From positions 1-43,710 of the forward strand of contig CALXMX010000173.1 in NCBI GenBank assembly GCA_944389575.1: a DNA stretch of 43,710 bases, given 5' to 3'. A program made the position numbers and the translations under genes. The notes below the pieces were generated by a model, which was given only the letters and a program-made list of their open reading frames with translations, did no database searches and was not told the DNA's origin. This document shows, piece after piece, positions 1 to 14,200 of this stretch; within the stretch, counting starts at the first letter, position 1, and each line of letters starts with the position of its first letter. Source of the stretch: an uncultured Opitutales bacterium (lineage in GTDB: Bacteria > Verrucomicrobiota > Verrucomicrobiia > Opitutales > Intestinicryptomonadaceae).

Positions 1-98
1 AGCTTGCCCTTCGGCCCCTCGACATTTACCGTGTTGTTTTCGACCGACACCTTAACTCCGGCCGGAATTGGAACGGGAAGTTTGCCTATTCTACTCAT
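1..98 (-). CDS. rplF: 50S ribosomal protein L6, N-terminal part (cut by window edge)
   Basis: Only the first 32 codons are present; the gene continues below position 1. The translation begins [15 protein letters not shown] and continues with [13 protein letters not shown], the L6 N-terminal domain. L6 binds 23S rRNA near the sarcin-ricin loop. The start ATG at 98 is preceded by a strong TAAGGAGG Shine-Dalgarno sequence whose TAA is the rpsH stop codon, so the two genes are 9 nt apart and probably translationally coupled. Position after rpsH is canonical for the spc operon. Confidence 0.95.
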
Positions 99-107
99 GA
101 GTCCTCC

Positions 108-503
108 TTACCAGACCTTGCATATTATTTCCCCGCCGACCTTCTTGGCGCGGCAGTCGGAATCCTTCAGCACGCCCTTCGACGTGGTGAGAATCGCTAT
201 GCCAAGACCGTTGAGAACGCGCGGAATATCGCGGTATTCGTGGTACATTCTGCAACCCGGCTTGCTTATTCTGGAAATGCCGGTCAGAGCGGGCACCCCG
301 TTGACCGACTTCATCGTCAACGTAATGACCCTCTTCTTCGGATCGCCGGATACCTCGTACGCGGAAATGTAGCCCTCGCTCTTGAGTATCGACGCTATGC
401 CCTCGCGCATCTTCGACCACTGAGCCGTGCAGCTCTCCTTGCCGGCCGCGCTGGCGTTGCGAATGATTGTGAGAAAGTCGCCTATGCTGTCGTGTGTAGC
501 CAT
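108..503 (-). CDS. rpsH: 30S ribosomal protein S8
   Basis: A 131-residue S8 of normal length, starting MATHDSIGDFLTIIRNA. S8 binds helix 21 of 16S rRNA and organises the platform of the small subunit. In enterobacteria it is the translational repressor of the spc operon; whether that holds here cannot be seen. It follows rpsN after 19 nt and its stop codon lies inside the rplF ribosome-binding site. Confidence 0.97.
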   Translation of the reverse strand: MATHDSIGDFLTIIRNASAAGKESCTAQWSKMREGIASILKSEGYISAYEVSGDPKKRVITLTMKSVNGVPALTGISRISKPGCRMYHEYRDIPRVLNGLGIAILTTSKGVLKDSDCRAKKVGGEIICKVW

Positions 504-522
504 CTTGTGAATTCCTTTCGCC

Positions 523-828
523 TTACCACGATGATTTCGTCACGCCCGGCAGCTTGCCGTCGAGAGCAAGCTCCCGAAACGTTATGCGCGACACCCCGAA
601 CTTCCCGACGTACCCGCGGCTCCTGCCCGTGATGGAACAGCGGTTGCGTATGCGGATCTTGGACGCGTTGCGCGGCAGTTTGCACAGCTTGCGCTGGGCC
701 GCAAAAAAGTCCTCGTCGCTCGTCGCCGGATCCTTCAAAATCTTCTTGAGCTGCTCCTTCTTGGCCGCAAACTTCGCAACCAATTTCTGACGCTTCAAAT
801 TACGCTGTATCGATGATTTCTTAGCCAT
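523..828 (-). CDS. rpsN: 30S ribosomal protein S14, long zinc-free type
   Basis: A 101-residue S14 with the C-terminal signature [18 protein letters not shown] and the ending PGVTKSSW. The length and absence of the paired CxxC motifs place it in the long, C-minus class that does not bind zinc. S14 sits in the head of the 30S subunit next to S3 and S10. It lies 12 nt after rplE. No sign of a second, zinc-binding paralogue is present in this window. Confidence 0.97.
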
Positions 829-840
829 GATATTCTTCCA

Positions 841-1407
841 TTATTTTTGGGCGACCACTGGCGCCGACGGTTTGCGGAAAGGAACCCCTAAAAGCTTCAA
901 AAGCTCGCGACCGGCATTGTCGTTGTCGGCGGTCGTCACTATAGTGATGTCCATGCCTATGCTCTTGCGGCCCGGATCGACCGTCACTTCGGGAAAAATG
1001 GTGTGGTCGGCAATGCCGTAGTTGTAGTTGCCCGCCCCGTCAAACTTGGAGGGCACGCCGCGAAAGTCGCGTATCGAGGGAAGAACCACGCCGATAAACT
1101 TGTAGAGAAAATCCCACATGCGCGCGCCGCGAAGCGTCACCTTCACGCCGTTGGGCTGCCCCGCCCTGAGCTTGAAGTTGGCTATGCTCTTCTTGGCCTT
1201 CGTCACAACCGGGCGCTGGCCGCTGATCTTGGCTATCTCCTTCGAGACCTCCTGAACCCAATTCTTGTCGCTCTCGCTGCGAAGGCCTGAACTTATCACA
1301 ATCTTCTCCAGATTGGGTATTTGGTGCGGATTCTCAACGCCCAAAGTCTTCTTCAGCTCCGGAACAACCTTCTCCGCATAGATTTTTTTGAGTACGGGTG
1401 TTTTCAT
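841..1407 (-). CDS. rplE: 50S ribosomal protein L5
   Basis: A 188-residue L5, in the family's usual 180-190 range, with the conserved stretch KAKKSIANFKLRAGQPNG and the C-terminal FPEVTVDP..KSIGMDITIVTTA. L5 binds 5S rRNA and contacts the P-site tRNA in the central protuberance. The ATG start at 1407 gives MKTPVLKKIYAEKVVPELKK. It follows rplX after 24 nt. Confidence 0.97.
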   Translation of the reverse strand: MKTPVLKKIYAEKVVPELKKTLGVENPHQIPNLEKIVISSGLRSESDKNWVQEVSKEIAKISGQRPVVTKAKKSIANFKLRAGQPNGVKVTLRGARMWDFLYKFIGVVLPSIRDFRGVPSKFDGAGNYNYGIADHTIFPEVTVDPGRKSIGMDITIVTTADNDNAGRELLKLLGVPFRKPSAPVVAQK

Positions 1408-1431
1408 TTTCTTAGTTTTTCTAACCTCCGC

Positions 1432-1686
1432 TTACGCCTTCTTCCTCTTGGAATCAAAACGCCCGGCAGGCATTACGTTGGAAATGTGTATGGAAACTTC
1501 GCGCTCTACCGCGGCCCCCTCGGGATTCTTTTCGCTCTTGCGCTCGTAAAATTTGCGCACGTTCACGCCCTCGACCAAAACGCGCTCCTTCTTAGGAAAT
1601 ACGGCAAGTATCTTGCCGCGCGAACCCTTCGACGAACCGGCGATTACGACAACCTCGTCGCCCTTCTTTACAAAACTCTTAGCCAT
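1432..1686 (-). CDS. rplX: 50S ribosomal protein L24
   Basis: An 84-residue protein starting MAKSFVKKGDEVVVIAGSSKG; the KOW motif GDEVVVIAGSSKGSRGKI is evident. L24 is an early assembly protein that binds the 5' end of 23S rRNA near the exit tunnel. The ATG at 1686 is preferred over an in-frame upstream extension because it gives the family N-terminus and lies one base after the rplN stop codon. The protein is shorter than the roughly 104-residue E. coli form, within the range of compact L24s. Confidence 0.96.
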   Translation of the reverse strand: MAKSFVKKGDEVVVIAGSSKGSRGKILAVFPKKERVLVEGVNVRKFYERKSEKNPEGAAVEREVSIHISNVMPAGRFDSKRKKA

Positions 1687-1687
1687 C

Positions 1688-2053
1688 TTAGAGAACCTCC
1701 GGTGCAAGGGATATTATCTTCATGAAATTCTTGCCGCGCAACTCGCGCGCAACAGGCCCGAATATGCGCGTGCCCTTCGGGTTTCCGTTGCCGTCGAGTA
1801 TGACGACCGCATTGGTGTCAAAGCGCAAATACGAACCGTCCGGACGGCGTATCGGCGCCTTTGTCCTGACTATCACAGCCTTGGCCACCGTGCCCTTCTT
1901 TACGGCGGCGTCCGGCGAGGAGGACTTTATCGCCACGACAATTATATCGCCGACGGAAGCCGTCCTGCTGAGCTGCCCGAGGCGGCGAATCATCATCGCC
2001 TCCTTCGCTCCGGTGTTGTCGGCAACAACCAGTCTGGTCTGCATCTGTATCAT
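1688..2053 (-). CDS. rplN: 50S ribosomal protein L14
   Basis: A 121-residue L14 of standard length, starting [20 protein letters not shown] with the ending [13 protein letters not shown]14 sits at the subunit interface and forms an intersubunit bridge. A strong Shine-Dalgarno sequence, AGGAGGCACGAGTC before the ATG, fixes the start. Its stop codon is separated from the rplX start by a single base, which suggests coupled translation. Confidence 0.98.
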
Positions 2054-2065
2054 GACTCGTGCCTC

Positions 2066-2356
2066 CTATTCGACCGTGGAAAGCGTCTCCGGCGCCTTCT
2101 CGACTATGCGCACAACGCGGAACCTCTTGTTCTTGCTGATCGGGCGCGTCTCCATGACCTCGACCTTGTCGCCCAATCCGCACTCGTTCTTCTCGTCGTG
2201 AACGTGAATGACGGTCTTGCGGTTAATTTCCTTGTGGTAGGCCGGGTGCGGCACCTTGTACGAATATACGACCTTGACGCTCTTGTCTCCCGACCGCGAT
2301 GTCACAACACCGACGAGGGTTCTGCGCGCCTTTCTTGCTTGTGCTTGTTCGGACAT
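2066..2356 (-). CDS. rpsQ: 30S ribosomal protein S17
   Basis: A 96-residue S17 containing the OB-fold pattern RRTLVGVVTSRSGDKSVKV and the conserved VHDEKNECGLGDKVEVMETRP block. S17 is a primary 16S rRNA-binding protein of the small-subunit body. It lies between rpmC and rplN with 12-nt gaps on both sides, the canonical order. Confidence 0.97.
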   Translation of the reverse strand: MSEQAQARKARRTLVGVVTSRSGDKSVKVVYSYKVPHPAYHKEINRKTVIHVHDEKNECGLGDKVEVMETRPISKNKRFRVVRIVEKAPETLSTVE

Positions 2357-2368
2357 TTTTATCGCCTT

Positions 2369-2551
2369 CTATTTCTCTCTCTTGATTGTTTCGCAGCGAA
2401 CTATGTCGCGGCGCAGCTGCCGGATGCGCGCCGTGTTCTCGACGGCGCCCGTGCCCTTGCGGATATTCAGATTTAAAAGCTCCTCGCGCATGTCGCGCAG
2501 CCTCTTTTCAATCTCCTCAACGGAAAGTTCCCTAATTTCCTTGGCCTTCAT
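2369..2551 (-). CDS. rpmC: 50S ribosomal protein L29
   Basis: A 60-residue protein, MKAKEIRELSVEEIEKRLRD, with two helices and the family motif ELLNLNIRKGTGAVENTARI. L29 lies beside L23 at the polypeptide exit and contributes to the docking site for SRP and trigger factor. Length and position between rplP and rpsQ are typical. Confidence 0.96.
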   Translation of the reverse strand: MKAKEIRELSVEEIEKRLRDMREELLNLNIRKGTGAVENTARIRQLRRDIVRCETIKREK

Positions 2552-2566
2552 GGTTAGTCGGTCTCC

Positions 2567-2995
<429 letters not shown>

Positions 2996-3016
2996 ATCGT
3001 GTGCTTTCCCCTAAAA

Positions 3017-3649
3017 TTAGATGTTGTCCTCCGACTTCAGGCAGAGCCAGCACTTGACGCCGATTTTGCCGTAAACGGTATTGGCCTCCGTAAAGCCGTA
3101 GTCGATGTTCTCGCGGAGAGTGTGCAGCGGTATGCGGCCCTTCCTCTGCCATTCGGTGCGCGCAATTTCCGCTCCGCCCAAGCGCCCCGAAACTTGAATC
3201 TTCACACCGTCGGCCCCCATGCTCATGCAGGTGGCTATGGCCTTCTTTATCGCGCGGCGGAAAGATATGCGGCGCTCCAGCTGAAGCGCGACGCTCTCGG
3301 CGACCAAAAACGCCACCAAATCCGGCTTCTTTATCTCCTGGATGTCAAGCAAGACGTCCTTGCCTATGAACTTGGACAGCTCCGCCTTCAAAGCCTCGAG
3401 AGCCGCGCCCTTCTGCCCTATTACCACGCCCGGACGCGCAGTGTAAATCTTGACGCGAATCCTCTGGCCGGCACGCTCTATAAATATGCGGGGAACCGCC
3501 GCGGCCTTCAGCTTCTCGCGGATAAATTCGCGGATTCGATAGTCCTCATTTACGGATTTGGCATAGTCGCCCTTGTTCGCAAACCAGCGCGACTCCCAGT
3601 CTCGACGAACGGCGAGACGAAAACCTTTCGGATTTACTTTCTGACCCAT
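3017..3649 (-). CDS. rpsC: 30S ribosomal protein S3
   Basis: A 210-residue S3 starting MGQKVNPKGFRLAVRRDWES, with a KH domain containing the GVVIGQKGAALEALKAEL motif near residues 75-95 and the C-terminal domain GRLGGAEIARTEWQRKGRIP. S3 lines the mRNA entry tunnel and participates in unwinding of structured mRNA. Length is slightly below that of E. coli (233) because the acidic or basic C-terminal tail is absent. Confidence 0.98.
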   Translation of the reverse strand: MGQKVNPKGFRLAVRRDWESRWFANKGDYAKSVNEDYRIREFIREKLKAAAVPRIFIERAGQRIRVKIYTARPGVVIGQKGAALEALKAELSKFIGKDVLLDIQEIKKPDLVAFLVAESVALQLERRISFRRAIKKAIATCMSMGADGVKIQVSGRLGGAEIARTEWQRKGRIPLHTLRENIDYGFTEANTVYGKIGVKCWLCLKSEDNI

Positions 3650-3668
3650 TGTATCTACCTCTCAATTT

Positions 3669-4004
3669 CTATTTCTCGTCGCTGAGGACTATTGAAATGT
3701 GGCTGGTTCTCCTCCTTATAGGATGCGCGCTTCCGCGCGCCACGGGGCGGAAACGCCTAAACGCCACGCCCTGATTTACCACCGCGCTCTTGATCTTCAG
3801 ATTAGCCGCAGAAAGCCCGTTGTTGTTCTCGGCGTTCGCAATCGCGCTGGCGAGTGTCTTGGCTATCAGCGCAGCGCTCTTGCGGGGCACGAGCTTGAGA
3901 ATCTCAAGCGCCTCGGCCGCATTCAACCCGCGCAACTGGCGAGCCACATCGCGCACCTTCTTGTCCGACATGCGCGCAAACTTTGTTAAAGCCTTTACTT
4001 CCAT
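3669..4004 (-). CDS. rplV: 50S ribosomal protein L22
   Basis: A 111-residue L22, MEVKALTKFARMSDKKVRDV, with the conserved C-terminal hairpin region AFRRFRPVARGSAHPIRRRT that lines the exit tunnel. The ATG at 4004 is preceded by AAGGAAATACA, a fair ribosome-binding site; an in-frame upstream extension is only a shadow of the preceding gene. Unusually, its upstream neighbour is not rpsS but a small gene for an exported protein, 19 nt away. Confidence 0.97.
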   Translation of the reverse strand: MEVKALTKFARMSDKKVRDVARQLRGLNAAEALEILKLVPRKSAALIAKTLASAIANAENNNGLSAANLKIKSAVVNQGVAFRRFRPVARGSAHPIRRRTSHISIVLSDEK

Positions 4005-4023
4005 TGTATTTCCTTTTATAAAT

Positions 4024-4377
4024 TTATTTCGCCAACAATATGTCAACCTCGTCGCCGGGCTCCACATTTCCGCCCGACAGCACCAATACGACGGCCCTTC
4101 CGGCGTTCGCCTCGACAACCACCGCCCTCGCGCGCTCCAAATCGCCCTTGCGCACAAGGCACGGCGCCCCTATCTGAAGCCTCCTCTCGGAACCAGTGTT
4201 GATTGCCGCAATTTCGGCGGGACCGTCCCTATCGACGGCGACAACCCTAATCTGCTTTGAATACGAGGCATTCTTGGGAACATTCTTGAGCGGCCATATC
4301 GGCGCGCCCGCAAAGCAAGGCGCCAGCGGCGCATAGAGCGCGCAGCAAAGAGCCAAAACTTTGACGAGGCCTGACAT
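4024..4377 (-). CDS. small exported protein of unknown function inside the S10 operon
   Basis: Not a ribosomal protein and not recognised by name. It has 117 residues. The first 23 or so (MSGLVKVLALCCALYAPLA followed by PCFA) form a clear Sec signal peptide: a Lys, a hydrophobic core and an AxA-like cleavage site before GAP. The mature ~94 residues look all-beta: short V/I/A-rich strands separated by Gly turns, with AAINTGSERRLQIGAPCLV, RARAVVVEANAGRAVV and a closing EPGDEVDILLA. This strand pattern is reminiscent of small barrel domains common in Verrucomicrobiota hypothetical proteins and of FlgT-like C-termini, but that is inference. The gene starts 3 nt after the rpsS stop and ends 19 nt before the rplV start, so it must share the S10-operon transcript. 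No strong Shine-Dalgarno sequence precedes it, which suggests coupling to rpsS. Base use resembles the neighbours. Confidence 0.85.
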   Translation of the reverse strand: MSGLVKVLALCCALYAPLAPCFAGAPIWPLKNVPKNASYSKQIRVVAVDRDGPAEIAAINTGSERRLQIGAPCLVRKGDLERARAVVVEANAGRAVVLVLSGGNVEPGDEVDILLAK

Positions 4378-4380
4378 GGT

Positions 4381-4659
4381 TTACATCGTAGCCTTCTTGG
4401 TGTGCGGCTGGTGACCCTTGAAGAAGCGGGTCGCGGCAAATTCGCCAAGCTTGTGCCCGACCATGTTCTCGGTGACATAAACAGGCATAAACTTCTTGCC
4501 GTTGTGCACGTTGAAGTTCAAGCCGATGAAGTCCGGAGTGATGGTCGAACGGCGCGACCAAGTCTGAATGGGCTTGTGCGAATTCGTCTTTTGCGCTTCG
4601 TCAATCTTGTCCTGGAGACTCGGATCAACAAACGGACCTTTTTTAATTGAGCGTGACAT
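4381..4659 (-). CDS. rpsS: 30S ribosomal protein S19
   Basis: A 92-residue S19 starting [20 protein letters not shown], with the conserved [25 protein letters not shown] split across the middle and the basic tail [11 protein letters not shown]19 binds 16S rRNA in the head with S13. It follows rplB after 18 nt. The TAA stop lies 3 nt before the ATG of the inserted exported-protein gene. Confidence 0.97.
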
Positions 4660-4677
4660 TTATGAATCTCCTATGGT

Positions 4678-5523
4678 TTATTTCTTCAACTTCTTGCCGT
4701 TGCGGCGCGTAATTATCATCGAGTTCGAAGGCTTGCTCTTCGTGCGGGTCGGATAGCTCTTGGCCAGCTGCCCCCACGGGGAGACCGGCTGCCCGCCGCC
4801 GCTCGTCTTGCCTTCGCCGCCGCCCATCGGGTGGTCGACAGGATTCATCGCTACGCCGCGCACGCGCGGGCGCCTGCCCAGCCAGCGGGAACGCCCCGCC
4901 TTGCCGAGGCTCTGGTTGCGGTGCTCGGAATTTCCAACAACCCCGATTACCGCCCTGCAAGCCGCATTGAACATGCGCAACTCTCCGCTGGGCATCTTGA
5001 CCGTGGCAACCTTGCCCTCTACGCCGACCAGCTGCGCCCCGACACCCGCTCCACGGGCGACCTTGGCGCCCTTGCCGGGCTGCATTTCTATGGAGTGAAT
5101 CTTCATCGCCGGAGGAATCAGCTCCAGCGGTATGCACAAACCCACGGGAAATTCGCTCTGCTTCTGGTTTGTGGAAAGAATCTTGTCCCCCTTCTTGAGG
5201 CCGTCGGGCGCTATGATGTAGCGCTTTTGGCCGCTCTCATATTCGACCAAAGCCAAATATGCCGTGCGATAGGGATCGTACTCTATGGCGACAACTGTCG
5301 CGGGAACGTCGATAATGTCGCGCTTGAAATCAACCACGCGATAGAGCTTCTTGTGCCCGCCGCCGCGGCGGCGCGAGGTAATGCGCCCGTAGCAGTTGCG
5401 GCCGCGCGCCCTGTGCTTGCTCTGCGTAAGGGAGCGCTCGGGACGCTTGTTGTCAACTTCGTGGCGGGCGAGCTCGAGAAATCTCTGCGCCGGAGTCAAA
5501 GGTCTTCTTTTAATAATAGCCAT
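4678..5523 (-). CDS. rplB: 50S ribosomal protein L2
   Basis: A 281-residue L2, close to the usual 273-280. Conserved features include RGGGHKKLYRVVDFKRD, GTVARSAG-like segment KVARGAGVGAQLVG, and the C-terminal MNPVDHPMGGGEGKTSGG that carries the conserved histidine near the peptidyl-transferase centre. L2 is essential for subunit association and peptide-bond formation. Spacing is 17 nt after rplW and 18 nt before rpsS. Confidence 0.98.
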   Translation of the reverse strand: MAIIKRRPLTPAQRFLELARHEVDNKRPERSLTQSKHRARGRNCYGRITSRRRGGGHKKLYRVVDFKRDIIDVPATVVAIEYDPYRTAYLALVEYESGQKRYIIAPDGLKKGDKILSTNQKQSEFPVGLCIPLELIPPAMKIHSIEMQPGKGAKVARGAGVGAQLVGVEGKVATVKMPSGELRMFNAACRAVIGVVGNSEHRNQSLGKAGRSRWLGRRPRVRGVAMNPVDHPMGGGEGKTSGGGQPVSPWGQLAKSYPTRTKSKPSNSMIITRRNGKKLKK

Positions 5524-5540
5524 CGTAATCGCCTCCTACA

Positions 5541-5828
5541 CTATGCCAACTGGATAGTGTCGCCCTTCTTGAGCGTCACTATCGCCTTCTTCATTCTGCC
5601 CTTGACGCCGGGATTAGCCTTGCGCATGCGGGAAACCTTCACCTTCCCCTTGGCGTTCATGATGTTCACCTTCTCAACGGTGACTTTGAACGCCCGCTCC
5701 ACCGCGCAGGCCACCGACACCGCATTGGCATCGTCCGAAACTTCAAACGTGTACTTGTTGGCGACCTGCAAATCGGTAGCCTTTTCGGTCACGCGAAACC
5801 CCTTTATAATTTTTTCCGCATTAATCAT
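5541..5828 (-). CDS. rplW: 50S ribosomal protein L23
   Basis: A 95-residue L23 with the family opening INAEKIIKGFRVTEKATDL and the segment FKVTVEKVNIMNAKGKVK. L23 sits at the tunnel exit and is the main docking site for trigger factor and SRP. The start lies 2 nt after the rplD stop codon. Length matches the bacterial norm. Confidence 0.97.
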   Translation of the reverse strand: MINAEKIIKGFRVTEKATDLQVANKYTFEVSDDANAVSVACAVERAFKVTVEKVNIMNAKGKVKVSRMRKANPGVKGRMKKAIVTLKKGDTIQLA

Positions 5829-5830
5829 GA

Positions 5831-6460
5831 TTAACCCCTGTTTGCGCGAACCAAAACCGTGTCAAAACCCTTGCGGCTGACGATTATCTTTTCAAAGCGA
5901 ACAAGCTCAAACGCGCTCAACATGGAAGTCTCGCAAAAGTTGACGCGGTTTATATTGCGGCTGGCCCTGATGAAGTTGTCGTCGAAAGTGTCGTCTATCA
6001 GGAGAACTTTGCCTTCGGGAACTATCTTCTTCAAAACGGCGTCAACTGCCTTGGTCTTGAGCTCCGGAGCCTCGAACTGCTCGATGATGCAGATGCCGTC
6101 ATCGGAACACCTGTCAAAGAGAGCCCTGTTGAACGCCAGCGACTTCACTTTGCGGTTTATCTTCTTCGACCAGTCGCGCGGCTTGGGGCCGAACACCACC
6201 GCCCCTCCGCGGTGAATGGGGCTCTTCATCGTCCCGTGGCGCGAGCGACCGCCGCCCTTCTGCTTGAAAGGCTTGCGGGACGTGCCGCCGACTTCGCCGT
6301 AATCGAGCGTGGAGGCGTTGCCCTGGCGGGCGTTGGCCTGGTACGCGACCAAAGTTTCCTTGAGCGCGAACACGCCCTTGTCGCCTTCAAACTGGGGAAT
6401 GGCGTCAAAATCCTGCTCGACAAACTCCGAACCGTCTTTCTTATAAACTTTAAGTTTCAT
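5831..6460 (-). CDS. rplD: 50S ribosomal protein L4
   Basis: A 209-residue L4 with the internal loop TSRKPFKQKGGGRSRHGTMK followed by SPIHRGGAVVFGPKPRDWSKKINRK, the extended arm that lines the exit tunnel. In E. coli L4 also autoregulates the S10 operon through its leader; here the nearest leader is the one before rplC (7114-7320), so a similar role is possible but unproven. Eleven nt separate it from rplC. Confidence 0.97.
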   Translation of the reverse strand: MKLKVYKKDGSEFVEQDFDAIPQFEGDKGVFALKETLVAYQANARQGNASTLDYGEVGGTSRKPFKQKGGGRSRHGTMKSPIHRGGAVVFGPKPRDWSKKINRKVKSLAFNRALFDRCSDDGICIIEQFEAPELKTKAVDAVLKKIVPEGKVLLIDDTFDDNFIRASRNINRVNFCETSMLSAFELVRFEKIIVSRKGFDTVLVRANRG

Positions 6461-6471
6461 TGTGCGGCTCC

Positions 6472-7113
6472 CTATTTAGACTGCTTGACCTTCTTTGCGG
6501 GGCGAACGACGACAAAATCGCCCTTCGCGCCGGGAAGACTGCCCTTTATAAGGAGAATATTTTTGTCTTCCAAAATTTTCACTATCGGGTGGTTCTGCGT
6601 AGTGCGGCGCACCTGCCCCATGTGGCCGGGCATCTTGCGCCCCTTGTAAATGTGGCCAGGAGTCTGGCGGCAGCCCACGGAACCGGGACGGCGGTGCATC
6701 ATGTGGCCGTGAGTTTCGGGCTGGCCGGCAAAGTTGTAGCGCTTCATCACGCCCTGGAAGCCGCGACCCTTTGTGGTGCCTATGATGTCGACAATCTGAC
6801 CCTCCTGGAAGGCCGAAACCGTCAAAACGTCGCCGGGCTTGTACTCCGAGGCGTTTTCGACGCGAAATTCCATCAATTTGCGCACGGGCGCAACGCCGGC
6901 TTTCTTCAGATGCCCGAGCGAAGGCTTGCTGACGCGCTGTTCCTTCTGCGCGCCGAAACCGATTTGCACGGCTTCGTATCCGTCGCTCTGAGCGGTTTTT
7001 ACTTGGGTGACGGGGCACGGACCGGCCTCGACGACCGTCACGGCAACCATGTTGTTGCCCTCGTCAAAAATCTGGGTCATGCCCAGCTTTTTACCTATCA
7101 GTATTTTGCTCAT
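6472..7113 (-). CDS. rplC: 50S ribosomal protein L3
   Basis: A 213-residue L3 starting MSKILIGKKLGMTQIFDEGN, with the long loop GRGFQGVMKRYNFAG and PGHIYKGRKMPGHMGQVRRT that reaches the peptidyl-transferase centre. The ATG at 7113 is chosen over an in-frame upstream codon at 7143 because it gives the family N-terminus. It is the first gene of its transcription unit: a terminator lies after rpsJ and a promoter candidate about 210 nt upstream. Confidence 0.97.
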   Translation of the reverse strand: MSKILIGKKLGMTQIFDEGNNMVAVTVVEAGPCPVTQVKTAQSDGYEAVQIGFGAQKEQRVSKPSLGHLKKAGVAPVRKLMEFRVENASEYKPGDVLTVSAFQEGQIVDIIGTTKGRGFQGVMKRYNFAGQPETHGHMMHRRPGSVGCRQTPGHIYKGRKMPGHMGQVRRTTQNHPIVKILEDKNILLIKGSLPGAKGDFVVVRPAKKVKQSK

Positions 7114-7319
7114 GTCTAAGCGGCAGGCGGAACGGCCTTGCAATCTTGCGGGGAAATTTCTTCCCGAATGCCGACCCCGCAGACCCGTCCCCGCGTTTTA
7201 CAGCGGGTAAAGCTCTCAGGCCGGCGCAGCCTCCCGGCCGCGCGTCGATCGCAAATCAGTCCCTTTTCAGACCTGCTTTAGCGTTATTGTTGTCGTTTAA
7301 AAAATCTGTAAAGAAGGGC

Positions 7320-7348
7320 AATAGTGGATACCTCTATGCCGCTGTCAA
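7320..7348 (-). promoter_or_regulatory. candidate sigma-70 promoter for the rplC ribosomal operon
   Basis: On the minus strand a perfect TTGACA (7343-7348) is followed after 17 nt by ACTATT (7320-7325), a weak -10 with three of six consensus bases. It lies in an A+T-rich patch downstream of the rpsJ terminator and about 210 nt before the rplC start, where a promoter is needed. Confidence 0.5.
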
Positions 7349-7466
7349 TATATTTTTTCCCGCAGAATAATTTTTTTAACAAAATTCGCGCAGATTTTTC
7401 GGTTCTCGGCAAATCTTATGCCGGCACTTCAAAAAATCCGCGCTGAATCCAGCAGAAAAAACCTGT

Positions 7467-7499
7467 AAAAATGCGAATAACGGCCCGGCCGCTATCCGC
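7467..7499 (-). terminator. intrinsic terminator after rpsJ
   Basis: On the minus strand, 11 nt after the rpsJ stop, GCGGATAGCGGC pairs with GCCGTTATTCGC across a CGG loop, a 12-bp stem with two G-U pairs, then runs into ATTTTT. This is a convincing Rho-independent terminator, so S10 ends the str unit and is separated from the rest of the S10 operon. Confidence 0.8.
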
Positions 7500-7510
7500 A
7501 CGAAAAAAGC

Positions 7511-7819
7511 CTAAACGTTGATTGTGATGTCAACGCCGGAGGGAAGATTGAGCTTCTTGAGCTCGTCAACCGTATTGACCGTGGGGTCGATTATGTCGAT
7601 AAGGCGCTTGTGCGTGCGCAGCTCAAACTGCTCCATGCTCTTTTTGTTGACGTGGACGGAACGGTTGACCGAATACTTCTCAATCTTGGTCGGCAACGGC
7701 ACCGGACCGGATACCCTTGCGCCCGTGCGCTTCGCCGTTTCAACGATGTCGCTCGCGCTCTGGTCTATCGTGCGAAAGTCGTAGCCCTTGAGTTTGATTC
7801 TTATTCTCTGAGTAGCCAT
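7511..7819 (-). CDS. rpsJ: 30S ribosomal protein S10 (NusE)
   Basis: A 102-residue S10, [20 protein letters not shown], with the conserved [19 protein letters not shown] and [20 protein letters not shown]10 is a head protein of the 30S subunit and, as NusE, links NusG-bound RNA polymerase to the ribosome and to antitermination. It is cotranscribed with fusA (18-nt gap) and followed by a terminator, so it belongs to the str unit although it heads the S10 operon in E. coli. Confidence 0.98.
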
Positions 7820-7837
7820 ATGTTTTTCCAGTTAAAA

Positions 7838-9997
7838 TTATCTCTGGGCGGCCTTCTTCGCCGCGCCCTCCTGAACCTGCTTGAGGACGTTGGCCGGCAC
7901 CTGCTCAAAGTGGCTTGGCTCCATCGAGTACGACGCCCTGCCGCTGGACAGCGAACGTATGTCCGTCGCGTATCCAAACATCGTTTCAAGCGGAATAAAC
8001 GCCTTGATGTTGCAGAGGTTGCCCTTCGTCTCCATGCCCTGTATCTGGCCGCGGCGGCGGTTGATGTCGCCCATGATGTCGCCCTGATACTCGTCGGGCG
8101 TGGTGACCTCGACTTTCATGATGGGCTCGAGCAGAATCGGAGCCGCGTTCTTCATGGCGTCCTTGAAGGCGAAAATGCCGGCCATCTTGAACGCCATTTC
8201 GGACGAGTCAACCTCGTGGAACGAACCGAACACCAAGCGCACCTTGACATCGACAACCGGATACCCCGCGACGACGCCGTTGAGCATGGCCTCCTTGATG
8301 CCGTCCTCCGTCGGCTTGATGTACTCCTTGGGAATCACACCGCCGACAATCTCGTTGACAAACTCGTAGTGCTTGCCCTTCTCCAGCGGCTCGATCTTGA
8401 TTTCCGCATGCCCGTACTGGCCGCGGCCGCCCGACTGGCGGACGAACTTGCCCACGCCGGCCGCGGGCTTGGTGATCGTCTCGCGATAGGCAATCTGCGG
8501 CTTGCCGGCGTCGGCCTCAACCTTGAACTCGCGCATGAGGCGGTCGCGTATAATTTCCAAATGGAGCTCGCCCATGCCCGCAATCAGCGTCTGGCCGGTT
8601 TCCTGATTGGACGTCACGACGAATGTCGGGTCCTCGTCCGACAGGCGCGAAAGCGCAATCGAAAGCTTCTCCTGGTCCGCCTTGCTCTTGGGCTCTATGC
8701 TCATGGCGATAACCGGCTCCGGGAAGGTCGGCGGCTCGAGGCGCAGCTCGTGGTCGCGCTCGCAGAGAGTATCGCCGGTGGCTATATCCTTGGCGCCGAT
8801 AATCGCGCATATGGAGCCCGAATAGGCCTCGTCGATGTCGTCGCGCTTGTCGGCCTTGAGTATCAGCAGGCGGGAAATGCGCTCCGTCTTGCGCGTGCGC
8901 GGATTGTAAACCTGCATGCCCTTCTTTATGCAGCCGCTGTAAACGCGGATAAACACCAACTTGCCGACAAACGGATCGCTCCAAAGCTTGAACGCGAGAG
9001 CCGCAGGCGGCGCGAAGTCGTCCGAAACAATCTCTAAAGAGGGTTCGTCCTCGTCGCCTTCGGCGTAGGCCTTGATCGGCGGAACGTCGAGCGGAGAGGG
9101 CAGATAGTCCACAACGGCGTTCATCATCATCTGCACGCCCTTGTTCTTGAACGCCGACCCCGGTATGACACCGACAAATTCGCGAGAAAGCGTAGCTTTA
9201 CGAATGCCCCTGCGCAATTCGTCCTCGGTAAAATTCATGTCGCCGTCGAGGAAGCGCACCATGATGTCGTCGTCGAAATCCGCGACCGCCTCGATTAGCT
9301 GCGCCCTGTACTGCTCGGCCTTCTCCTTGTATTCGGCGGGAATTTCAACCTCGTCGAACTTCACGCCAAGCGGGTCGCTCTCGTCGTACATAAAGGCCTT
9401 CATTTTCACCAGGTCCACAAGGCCTATGAACTTGTCCTCCGAACCGATGGGGAGAAACAGCGGATGGGGATTGCCGTTGAGCTTCGTCTTGATGTCGTTC
9501 ACAGCGCCGTAGAAATCCGCGCCGGTTCTGTCCATCTTGTTTATGAAAGCTATGCGGGGAACGTGGTACTTGTTCATCTGCCGCCAGACCGTCTCGGACT
9601 GGGGCTGCACGCCCGCAACCGCGCAAAACACGGCAACCGCCCCGTCGAGAACGCGGAGCGAACGCTCCACCTCGGCGGTGAAGTCGACGTGTCCGGGAGT
9701 GTCTATGAGGTTTATCTGGTGCTCGATATTGGCGTACGGGCCCTCCTTCGTCGTCCAATTGCAGCTGATTGCCGAAGAGGTGATCGTAATGCCGCGCTCG
9801 CGCTCCTGCTCCATCCAGTCGGTGACGGCCGTTCCCTCGTGAACCTCGCCGATCTTATGCACCACGCCGCTGTAAAACAAAATGCGTTCCGAACAGGTTG
9901 TCTTGCCCGCGTCTATGTGGGCGGATATGCCTATGTTTCTCGTGTACTCGAGAGGCTTCGGCCTGTTCGGAGAATTCTTTTCCGATAATTGTGCCAT
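7838..9997 (-). CDS. fusA: translation elongation factor G
   Basis: A 719-residue EF-G with all GTPase motifs in order: [15 protein letters not shown] (P-loop, about residue 27-41), the RGITI switch [17 protein letters not shown], and NKMDRTGAD. Domains II-V follow, including the domain IV segment [16 protein letters not shown] drives translocation and, with RRF, ribosome recycling. It starts [20 protein letters not shown], with a short extra N-terminus. It lies 57 nt after rpsG and 18 nt before rpsJ. Confidence 0.98.
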
Positions 9998-10054
9998 GTC
10001 TTGCTTGCTCTAATTGATGTTCGCCTTGCGATGGATAAAAAGACGCCGTCCGCG

Positions 10055-10528
10055 CTACCAGCGCAAATGCGCAAAGGCCCTGTTGGACTGCGCCATCTTG
10101 TGAACGTCTTCGCGCTTCTTTACGACTGTACCCGTGTTGTTGTACGCGTCCACGAGCTCCGCTGCCAGAGCCTCCGCCATCGGGAGCCCCTTCTTGGCCG
10201 CCGCCGCTTCTATGAGCCAGCGAAATGCGAGCGTCTGCTGCCTGTCGAACGAGACCTCCACCGGAACCTGATACGTGGCCCCGCCGACGCGGCGGCTCTT
10301 GACTTCCAGCTTCGGGCGAACGTTCTCAAGCGCGCCGAGAAGCAAATCTATGGGATCGCCCTTTTCAAGCTTTTCGCTGACGCGCTCGATTGCGCCGTAA
10401 ACTATGCGCTCGGCAACCGACTTCTTGCCCCTCTTCATTATCATGTTGATGAGGTGGCTTACCAACGGGCTCTTGTAGCGCGAATCGGGAATGCGTTCTC
10501 TTTTTTCAGCTCTGTGTCTGCGTGACAT
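10055..10528 (-). CDS. rpsG: 30S ribosomal protein S7
   Basis: A 157-residue S7, MSRRHRAEKRERIPDSRYKS, with VSHLINMIMKRGKKSVAERI and the C-terminal KREDVHKMAQSNRAFAHLRW. S7 nucleates assembly of the 30S head and lines the E site; in E. coli it represses the str operon. It follows rpsL after 30 nt. Confidence 0.98.
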   Translation of the reverse strand: MSRRHRAEKRERIPDSRYKSPLVSHLINMIMKRGKKSVAERIVYGAIERVSEKLEKGDPIDLLLGALENVRPKLEVKSRRVGGATYQVPVEVSFDRQQTLAFRWLIEAAAAKKGLPMAEALAAELVDAYNNTGTVVKKREDVHKMAQSNRAFAHLRW

Positions 10529-10558
10529 AATTTCTGCCTTGTGATAATGTGTTGCTGT

Positions 10559-10939
10559 TTACTTGCCGGCCTTCGGGCGTTTCACGCCGTACTTCGAGCG
10601 GCTGCGGCGACGCTTCTCAACGCCGACGCAGTCGAGGGCGCCGCGGATAATGTGGTAACGGACGCCGGGCAAGTCCTTGACGCGGCCGCCGCGCACGAGC
10701 ACTACGCTGTGCTCCTGGAGCGAGTGCCCCTCGTCGGGAATGTATGCAATGACTTCATAGCCGGAAGTCAGGCGGACTTTTGCGACTTTGCGGATAGCCG
10801 AATTGGGCTTTTTGGGAGTGCGGGTCATGACCTGCACGCACACGCCGCGGCGAAATGGGCATGCCTTGAGAGCGGGAGCCTTCGTCTTTGAAACGACGAG
10901 ACGGCGCGGTTTGCGAACTAATTGATTTATTGTAGGCAT
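10559..10939 (-). CDS. rpsL: 30S ribosomal protein S12
   Basis: A 126-residue S12 starting [13 protein letters not shown]; the in-frame upstream extension to 11026 is not part of the family protein. The decoding-centre loops [11 protein letters not shown] (Lys 43 and Lys 44) and [13 protein letters not shown] are unchanged at positions where streptomycin-resistance substitutions occur. S12 monitors codon-anticodon pairing in the A site. It is the first gene of the str unit, with a promoter candidate 35-60 nt upstream. Confidence 0.98.
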
Positions 10940-10973
10940 ATTTTGTGTCTGATTAAAGAGAAAGAAAAGGGAA

Positions 10974-10999
10974 AGTATATTTGCCCCATTCTTTGGCAA
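10974..10999 (-). promoter_or_regulatory. candidate str-operon promoter overlapping an inverted repeat
   Basis: On the minus strand TATACT (10974-10979) makes a good -10 box 34 nt before the rpsL ATG. A TTGCCA (10994-10999) lies upstream, but the spacing is only 14 nt, so the true -35 is uncertain. TTGCC and GGCAA form a short inverted repeat (10981-10999) abutting the -10 box; on the plus strand the same repeat is followed by nine T residues. Confidence 0.4.
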
Positions 11000-11228
11000 G
11001 TTTTTTTTTGATTTATTTTTCCGCAATCGCGCGGATTGCCCCGTTTTAGCGGCCTGCGCCGCATGCGGGACGCGGATTGCAATGTTGGAATTTTACTCTT
11101 CCAAGCTGCGCAGAGCGCGGCGCAAACTTTGCGCTTATCCGCTCCGCCAGCCCGGCCGTTCCCCGCGTTCGGGAAGCTGCAACCCTCCTCCCCGAAACGC
11201 CGAAAGAGCACACCCGAAAGCCGACGGG

Positions 11229-14200
11229 CTACTCGCGCGCCGAAAGCGCGCTTTCCGCCCCTACGCCCTCCGAAGATTCGCCGCCGTCGAGCATGCCGGC
11301 CCCCGCCGCAAAGACTTTCAGCTTGCGGTAGGCGTTCAGCCCCGTACCCGCAGGTATCAGGTTGCCCATGATGACGTTTTCCTTGAAGCCGGTAAGGTCG
11401 TCCTTCTTGCCGAGCGTCGCGGCTTCCGTAAGGACGCGCGTAGTCTCCTGGAAGGAGGCCGCGCTGATGAAGCTCTCCGTCTCAAGGCTGGCCTTTGTGA
11501 TGCCGAGCAGTATGGGCTCGCCCGTGGCGGGCTTGCCGCCGGCCTCAACAATTCCGCGGTTCGTCTCCATGAACTCGAAGCGGTCAACCTGCTGGCCCCA
11601 GAAATAGTCGGAGTCGCCAGGCTCGGTCACGCGGACCTTGCGCAGCATTCTGGAGGCGATCACCTCTATGTGCTTGTCGTTGATGGTGACGCCCTGAGAG
11701 CGGTAAACCTTCTGAATCTCGCGCAGAATATACTCCTGCACGGCGTTCGAACCAAGCACCTCCAGGATTTCGCTCGGATCCGCGCCGCCCTCGGTGAGGA
11801 ACTGGCCCTTCTTCACCTCGTCGCCGTCCTGGACGGTGATGCGCTTGTTGGCCGGTATGAGATGCTCTTCCGCGCGCTCGTCGGCCTCGTCGCCCTTCAG
11901 CCCCTTTTCGTCGCCCTTCGGGACGATCTTGAGAACGCGCTTCTTGCGGCGAATTCCTCCGAGCTTCACTATGCCGTCCATGCGCGCCATTTCAGCGGCC
12001 TCCTTCGGCCTGCGCGCCTCAAAGAGGTCAGCGACGCGCGGCAGACCGCCGGTGATGTCCTGCGTCTTGGCCGCCGAACGCGGAGTCTTGGCTATCATCG
12101 CGCCCGCGGCGATAGTGTCGCCGTCGGAAACTACAACCTGCGCCCCGGTCGGTATGGCGAGGAAGGAAACCTCCTTCTTCGTCTTGGGGTCGATTATGGC
12201 CACGGTCGGATTGAGGTCCTCCTTGTGGTCGGAAATAGTTATGGTGTTTCTCCCCGTGGATGGGTCGAAATCGCTGCGGTAGGTAAGGCCGTCGATCATG
12301 TCGCGGAACACGATCTTGCCGCCCTTGTCCGCCAAAATCGGTATGTTGTGCGGGTCCCATTGCGCGAGCATCTGCCCCTTCTTTATGGGGGCGCCGTCGT
12401 CGAACGGAATGAGGGAGCCGGCGACTATCGCGTAATCCTCGGCAACCTTGCCGTCCTCGTCAATGATATGTATGTGTCCGGTCTTGTTGAGCACGACATG
12501 CGCGTTCTCCTTGATGGTGACCGTGCGGAGGTCGTCGTACTTGACCGTGCCGCTCGTGCGAACCCTTATTTCAGGCGCCTTGACAGACTGCGCCACGCCG
12601 CCGACGTGGAACGTTCTCATCGTCAACTGCGTTCCGGGCTCGCCTATGGACTGCGCCGCAATTATGCCGACCGCCGTCCCGCGCTCCACTAACTTCTGAG
12701 TGGACGGGTCTATGCCGTACGCCTTCGCGGGAATCGAGTTGCGCTTCAAGTGCGTGAGCGGACTCATGACCTTCACGCGCTCAATGCCCAACGCGTTCAC
12801 GCGCTTAGCCATCTCCTCCGTAATCAGCGCGCCGCTGGGTATTACTATCTCGTCCGGATTGGCGGGATTGCGAACGTCGTCGCTGGAGCAGCGGCCGACA
12901 ATGCGGTCGAAGAGCGAGACAATCTCGTCGTCGCCGTCGTATATGGCCTCCTTCCAGATGCCGTTGCGGTTTCCGTCGTCTTCCTCGGTTATGATCACGT
13001 CCATGGCGACGTCGCAAAGCTTGCGCGTCATGTAGCCGGCGTCCGCGGTTTTCAGCGCGGTGTCGGCCAAACCCTTGCGGGCGCCGTGCGTGGAAATGAA
13101 GTATTCGTGAACGCTCAGCCCCTCGCGGAAAGACGACAGAATCGGACGCTCGATAATCTCGCCGTTGGGCTTCGCCATCAGGCCGCGCGCCCCGCAGAGC
13201 TGGCGAACCTGAGCCTTGTTGCCGCGCGCCCCGGAATCCATGAGAATGTAGACCGGATTTATGTGCTGCCTGCCCCAAGTCTTTTCCGGAACCTTCGCCA
13301 GATTTTCAAACGCCCTCTTGGCGATCTCCTCCGTGGCGACGTTCCATATGTCGATCACCTTGTTGCTGCGCTCGCCCTTGGTGATGGTGCCCTTGTGGTA
13401 GTCGTTTTCCACCTCCTTTATCTTCGCGCGCGCCGCGGCGATTATGGCCGGCTTTTCCGACGGAATGTTCATGTCGCCGATTCCGATGGATATGCCCGCC
13501 AGCGTCGCGGTGCGGAACCCCATCGCCTTCATCTTGTCGAGCACGGGCGCGCTGTCCGCGCGGCCACAGATTTTAAACGTGTTCAAAATCAAATCCCCGA
13601 GCTTGCCCTTCGGAACGGAGAAGTTGACAAAGCCCATCTGCTCGGGCCATATCGTATTGAATATCACCCTGCCGACCGTCGTGCGAATGAGCTTTTTGTT
13701 CGGGTCGCCGTAAATGGTCTTTTTGCCGAAGTCGGGATTCACGAAGTCAATCCAGTCGTGCCAGTGCAGCATTCCCTCGGCGTGGGCGGCCTCGACCTCG
13801 CGGACGTTGGCCAGAATCGGAACGCGGTCGCCCGCCTCCTTCTTCTTGCTCGGCTCGTACGTCAGATAATACACGCCCAAAACGATGTCCTGCGACGGCG
13901 TCAAAATCGGCTTGCCCGACGACGGGGAGAATATGTTGTTGCTGGCGAGCATCAGAAGCTTGGCCTCCATTATGGCCTCGAGCGAGAGCGGAACGTGTAC
14001 CGCCATCTGGTCGCCGTCAAAGTCCGCATTGTAGGCCGCGCACGTGAGCGGGTGGAGCCTGATTGCGTCGCCCTCTATGAGAACGGGCTCAAACGCCTGT
14101 ATCGAAAGCCTGTGAAGCGTGGGCGCGCGGTTCAGCATGACCGGGTGCCCCTCGGTGACCTCCTCAAGTATGTCCCAAACTTCCGGCGACTTCTTTTCAA

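Follow-up and report, generated by a model that had tools for sequence, protein, structure and literature searches.

Few bacterial gene junctions are as stable as that between rpsS and rplV, two genes whose adjacency is nearly universal. A gene for a putative exported protein at this site raises the question of whether the gene is real, how widely it is kept, and what such a protein might do when it is encoded among ribosomal genes. The locus lies in a stretch of DNA of 43,710 nucleotides, which we call the window.

The gene between rpsS and rplV

An ORF of 117 codons occupies positions 4024 to 4377 of the minus strand, which also carries the neighbouring genes of the S10 operon. rpsS ends at 4381, 3 nt ahead of the ORF's ATG at 4377, and the stop codon at 4024 is followed after 19 nt by the rplV ATG at 4004. 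The original prediction was correct as to the ORF and both spacers and wrong as to the strand, the gene reading on the minus strand from the ATG at 4377 to the stop at 4024. The features of the locus are as follows.

4024-4377, minus strand: gene for the putative exported 117-aa protein, ATG 4377-4375, stop 4026-4024 (ORF list, junction homologues, dN/dS)
4309-4377, minus strand: predicted signal peptide, residues 1-23, MSGLVKVLALCCALYAPLAPCFA (read from the sequence; family N-terminus statistics; AlphaFold2 helix 4-18)
4036-4257, minus strand: predicted beta-barrel domain, approximately residues 41-114, common to all members (AlphaFold2 strands; alignment A1)
4381-4659, minus strand: rpsS, ribosomal protein S19 (Pfam PF00203, E 1.6e-35)
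3669-4004, minus strand: rplV, ribosomal protein L22 (Pfam PF00237, E 1.4e-32)
4392-4398, minus strand: candidate ribosome-binding site of the 117-codon gene, AAGAAGG, within the 3' end of rpsS (sequence reading)
4011-4014, minus strand: candidate rplV ribosome-binding site, AGGA, in the 19-nt spacer (sequence reading)

rpsS ends of the AAGAAGG type are likewise present in the closest relatives. No promoter-like site was detected in the rpsS-gene-rplV junction, and the one terminator-like match at the junction falls inside the ORF, with shuffled sequences giving more such matches. No Rfam elements were detected in positions 1 to 12000 of the window. The spacing of the genes and the absence of a promoter-like site suggest that the gene would be co-transcribed with the S10 operon.

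The 117-codon ORF is a real gene and is neither a chance nor a degenerate frame. Every relative from the genus and family whose junction was readable has a homologue of similar length at this site. By the Nei-Gojobori method, dN/dS was 0.25 in the comparison with the nearest relative (a rough value, given 55% identity and a dS of approximately 1.5), 0.13 to 0.32 among eight further pairs from the order, and 0.10 to 0.21 for six Akkermansia pairs; with dS near 1 or higher in several pairs the single ratios are rough, yet all lie well below 1. These sequence comparisons show purifying selection on the gene. Within the genus and family the junction protein drifts fast, with 19 to 55% identity compared with 85 to 99% for S19. 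Degeneracy in close relatives was looked for, and what we found were homologues that are kept, with dN/dS of 0.10 to 0.32; a degenerate frame was rejected on the basis of the intact junction homologues and of ratios well below 1. A lineage-private ORF was also rejected, the gene being spread across the phylum.

Export of the junction protein is well supported by its sequence. The N terminus in the window, MSGLVKVLALCCALYAPLAPCFA with G as the next residue, reads by eye as a typical Sec signal, with a positive residue, a hydrophobic core, and cleavage between CFA and G. Among 99 distinct junction sequences, 95% have a strongly hydrophobic 12-mer within the N-terminal 45 residues, compared with 2% of S19 and L22 sequences. 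Cleavage sites of the AxA/VxA type occur in 72 of the 99, and lipobox-like sites, some of them probably fortuitous, in 8. The marks of Sec export (a signal sequence, a hydrophobic core, and small residues at positions -3 and -1) were found by sequence reading and in the statistics on the 99 homologues, so that the original prediction of an exported protein with a signal peptide is upheld on these two grounds.

The barrel domain is kept while the apparent means of export varies across members: L088, L163, and L170 resemble lipoproteins (AAGC, GSGC, and AAC lipoboxes), and L159 and L168 have uncleaved-looking anchors. The median pI of the mature part is 5.3 in the family, compared with values above 10 for S19 and L22, and the family is therefore no extra ribosomal protein by this measure, although the window's own mature part has a pI of 9.0. 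Identity as a ribosomal protein was rejected on the signal sequence, the FlgT-like barrel described below, and this family median.

Distribution in the order and the phylum

A scan of genome contigs with the single protein found nothing because the protein diverges fast; homologues were recovered by whole-genome and HMM searches. An HMM built from alignment A1, which comprises 37 junction proteins, was searched against 177 genomes of the window's order and matched 81, all 81 at the rpsS-rplV junction (74 placed by coordinates, 5 by reading of the junction, and 2 as halves at contig ends). In the order genomes that lack the gene at the junction, this HMM found no match elsewhere in the genome, and the gene-free junctions, where read, have short, normal rpsS-rplV spacing. 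Four order genomes with a junction copy also contain, at another site, a longer ORF that matches weakly, and the two of these that were examined are membrane-anchored paralogues. The gene is missing from the junction in approximately half of the sampled order families, including sampled families with genomes of 0.7 to 1.1 Mb and also some with larger genomes. Certain settings thus allow cells to do without the gene, which is not universally required.

Apparent losses inside one family were seen in f14, where G145 (L086), G052 (L069), and G126 (L081) have a junction of 85 to 120 nt without the ORF and other genera keep it. The single-contig genome G010, of the same genus as the window, yielded zero candidates for rpsS, mreC, and the junction gene and looks masked or incomplete.

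A class-wide search gave matches in 209 of 286 genomes, some of them possibly paralogues; the phylum-wide figure of 179 of 289 is no measure of prevalence, since it includes paralogues that lie outside the operon. At the loci of the best hits outside the order, the same domain forms the C terminus of a protein of 215 to 290 aa encoded between rpsS and rplV, in which a signal peptide or membrane anchor is followed by a long helical, coiled-coil-like segment and the C-terminal beta-barrel. Named records with the junction gene are those of Akkermansia muciniphila, other Akkermansiaceae, Haloferula luteola, and Persicirhabdus sediminis. Versions of approximately 160 to 250 aa lie between rpsS and rplV in families f85, f90, f93, f95, f108, f110, f111, f114, and f121, which are assigned to the phylum Verrucomicrobiota outside the window's class. 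In f81, f97, f103, and f107 the gene lies directly upstream of rplV-rpsC-rplP with no rpsS in the upstream stretch, and the S10 operon of these families looks, from the sequence, to be split exactly at the junction. At L164, L165, L166, L167, L182, and L185, which belong to these families, neither rpsS nor rplB was found upstream of rplV in the stretch read.

The gene is carried by 136 of the 167 loci at which both rpsS and rplV were read and is absent from 31 (duplicates included), counts that give no prevalence since many loci were fetched because the gene was present. Over the 99 distinct junction sequences, the median spacer is approximately 17 nt towards rpsS and 14 nt towards rplV, short in both cases. 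Distances between family proteins correlate with S19 plus L22 distances (Spearman 0.48; 0 of 999 permutations as high; n = 99), as mainly vertical descent would predict.

Paralogues off the S10 operon were observed at L192:4266-5048(-), L193:3986-4768(+), L196:4740-5948(-), L194:5319-6910(-), and L195:4499-5248(+). They encode proteins of 249 to 402 aa in which the barrel domain of the family is combined with a membrane anchor and a coiled coil; in three cases they adjoin a conserved ORF of approximately 525 aa, and two lie in tandem in an Akkermansia.

The best reading of these data is that the junction gene represents an ancient family of Verrucomicrobiota, that the window's order lost the coiled coil, and that many lineages lost the gene. 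The suggestion that it might be a lineage-specific marker was too narrow: homologue searches and junction comparisons covering the phylum Verrucomicrobiota found the gene recurrently at rpsS-rplV, in a longer coiled-coil form outside the order and with repeated loss.

Fold and proposed role

AlphaFold2, given the 37-sequence alignment, predicted with high confidence (pLDDT above 90 for most residues) a compact six-stranded beta-rich domain at approximately residues 41 to 114 (strands 44-49, 56-59, 72-77, 80-90, 95-102, and 110-113), in agreement with the small beta-rich mature domain that had been proposed from the sequence. Foldseek searches of the PDB ranked the flagellar LPHT ring and FlgT highest, both for the window protein (E 5.5e-3 and 8.9e-3; TM of approximately 0.5) and for the long form, for which an alignment of four close long forms was used (E 6.9e-5 and 3.0e-4; TM 0.29). 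MreC was further down than FlgT with both models. The resemblance to FlgT is modest, and many unrelated small beta-barrels, among them F1-ATPase N-terminal domains, pyruvate kinase, and alanine racemase, score near it. No Pfam or NCBIfam model scored above its cut-off for the family, and the window ORF had no Pfam match. FlgT_C (PF16538), which has a cut-off of 27 bits, scored no higher than 23.8, in one long form, and did not match the window protein; profile searches of the PDB gave weak matches only. As judged by these profile searches, no curated family covers the junction protein.

We tentatively propose, as a reading that is plausible though short of probable, that the junction protein is a periplasmic adaptor or scaffold module that docks in the envelope and whose dose is tied to ribosome production. 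Translation of the S19-to-L22 stretch of the S10 message would yield the junction protein between S19 and L22, and its signal peptide, whose place is taken in certain relatives by a membrane anchor or a lipoprotein signal, would direct it through the inner membrane. On the far side, the FlgT/MreC-type beta-barrel at the C terminus would probably dock on a larger envelope assembly, and in most relatives outside the order the coiled coil ahead of the barrel probably oligomerises the protein. An envelope scaffold or adaptor would thereby be kept in step with growth.

Beyond the position, conservation, purifying selection, and domain make-up demonstrated here, the predicted fold points to the docking and scaffold role, and the operon position suggests the coupling to growth. 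Because the message would be shared with ribosomal genes, the amount of protein is expected to rise and fall with ribosome synthesis, and hence with growth rate. The earlier idea of a growth-rate-coupled envelope factor stands in this form, its envelope part supported by the predicted export and its coupling following from operon position. A bolder version, in which an ancestor of the Verrucomicrobiota put a coiled-coil/barrel scaffold gene into the S10 operon as a dedicated ribosome-to-envelope coupling factor that sets envelope assembly capacity, is possible, if somewhat doubtful.

Alternatively, the S10 operon might offer the gene only strong constitutive expression and a stable neighbourhood, with no special tie between its envelope role and ribosomes. 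No link of the product to ribosomes was found, and losses of the gene leave normal rpsS-rplV spacing, both of which speak for such an arrangement. However, linkage to rplV persists even without rpsS upstream, and order genomes without a junction copy have none elsewhere; we regard this explanation as unlikely.

The long forms share the plan of MreC (anchor or signal, coiled coil, beta domain), give weak cross-hits to the NCBIfam MreC model (best E 7.7e-6; L120 at 17.7 bits against a cut-off of 343), and retrieve MreC structures among their fold hits. The protein might accordingly be a diverged second copy of MreC's beta domain that works alongside MreC to elongate the cell wall. However, a genuine mreC is encoded elsewhere in the window's genome (G000:C102:481-939, E 7.2e-34), and mreC is found, single-copy, in 161 of the 177 order genomes, with or without the junction gene. 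In addition, FlgT outscores MreC, and the junction protein has one small barrel rather than the two domains of MreC. Identity as MreC itself was rejected, given the genuine mreC elsewhere and the lack of any MreC model above cut-off, and we consider an MreC-like accessory improbable.

The gene for an exported protein immediately precedes that for L22, and L22 lines the constriction of the exit tunnel on which SecM-type arrest acts. This arrangement also brings to mind a secretion sensor, in which the export of the growing chain would adjust how strongly rplV and the genes after it are translated. Such a sensor is very improbable: what is conserved is a folded domain rather than a C-terminal arrest sequence, RAPP/RAGP-like motifs are absent from the 99 sequences, and a candidate ribosome-binding site of its own precedes rplV. 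The few known arrest motifs sought in these sequences gave nothing except three internal PPP, and the junction RNA folds no better than shuffled sequences (z -0.32). A cytoplasmic ribosome- or translocon-associated protein using its hydrophobic N terminus as a membrane anchor only, as the uncleaved-looking anchors of relatives such as L159 and L168 might suggest, is very unlikely given the AxA/VxA-type sites in 72 of 99 sequences, the few lipobox-like sites, and a median mature pI unlike that of ribosomal proteins, although that of the window's mature part is higher.

The periplasmic adaptor or scaffold thus remains our preferred reading. Non-ribosomal genes in ribosomal operons are already known, such as secY and adk in the spc operon. 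We know of no precedent, however, for an S10 operon that retains the gene of an exported protein in much of a phylum, nor of another phylum in which the gene for a periplasmic scaffold is placed there. A search of the literature, with most subscription papers and all supplementary tables outside its reach, found no description of the gene. An exported protein kept by much of a phylum, Akkermansia included, at a highly stable junction offers a concrete system in which a tie between envelope biogenesis and ribosome synthesis can be tested. For Verrucomicrobium spinosum, a saturated transposon data set has been published, and the same study reports targeted mutagenesis of this species (PMC12283558).

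Comparison with known systems

The closest comparison is with the C-terminal domain of FlgT (PF16538) from the Vibrio flagellar H/T ring, which is the best, if modest, fold match of both forms and has weak sequence similarity to the long form; both proteins appear to be exported. The junction protein differs in lacking the N-terminal and middle domains of FlgT and in scoring below the Pfam cut-off, and its gene lies in the S10 operon among ribosomal neighbours, with no flagellar context seen. MreC (PF04085) resembles the long form in its plan and in weak HMM and fold similarity, whereas the junction protein coexists with a separate genuine MreC, reaches the cut-off of no MreC model, and has a single small barrel, without a coiled coil in the short form. 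At most, a FlgT_C/MreC-type barrel is at work in a protein that is a member of neither family. The C-terminal region of TsaP, a secretin-associated LysM protein, gave a weak profile match between the long form and a PDB chain (E 0.041), but a LysM domain was not recognised in the junction protein. Finally, like the PVC signature protein of the CT421.2 type, the junction protein is unannotated and restricted to a bacterial clade. CT421.2 homologues have approximately 53 to more than 80 aa (PMC3444138), whereas members of the junction family have 105 to 290 aa, are predicted to be exported, and carry a beta-barrel, often together with a coiled coil.
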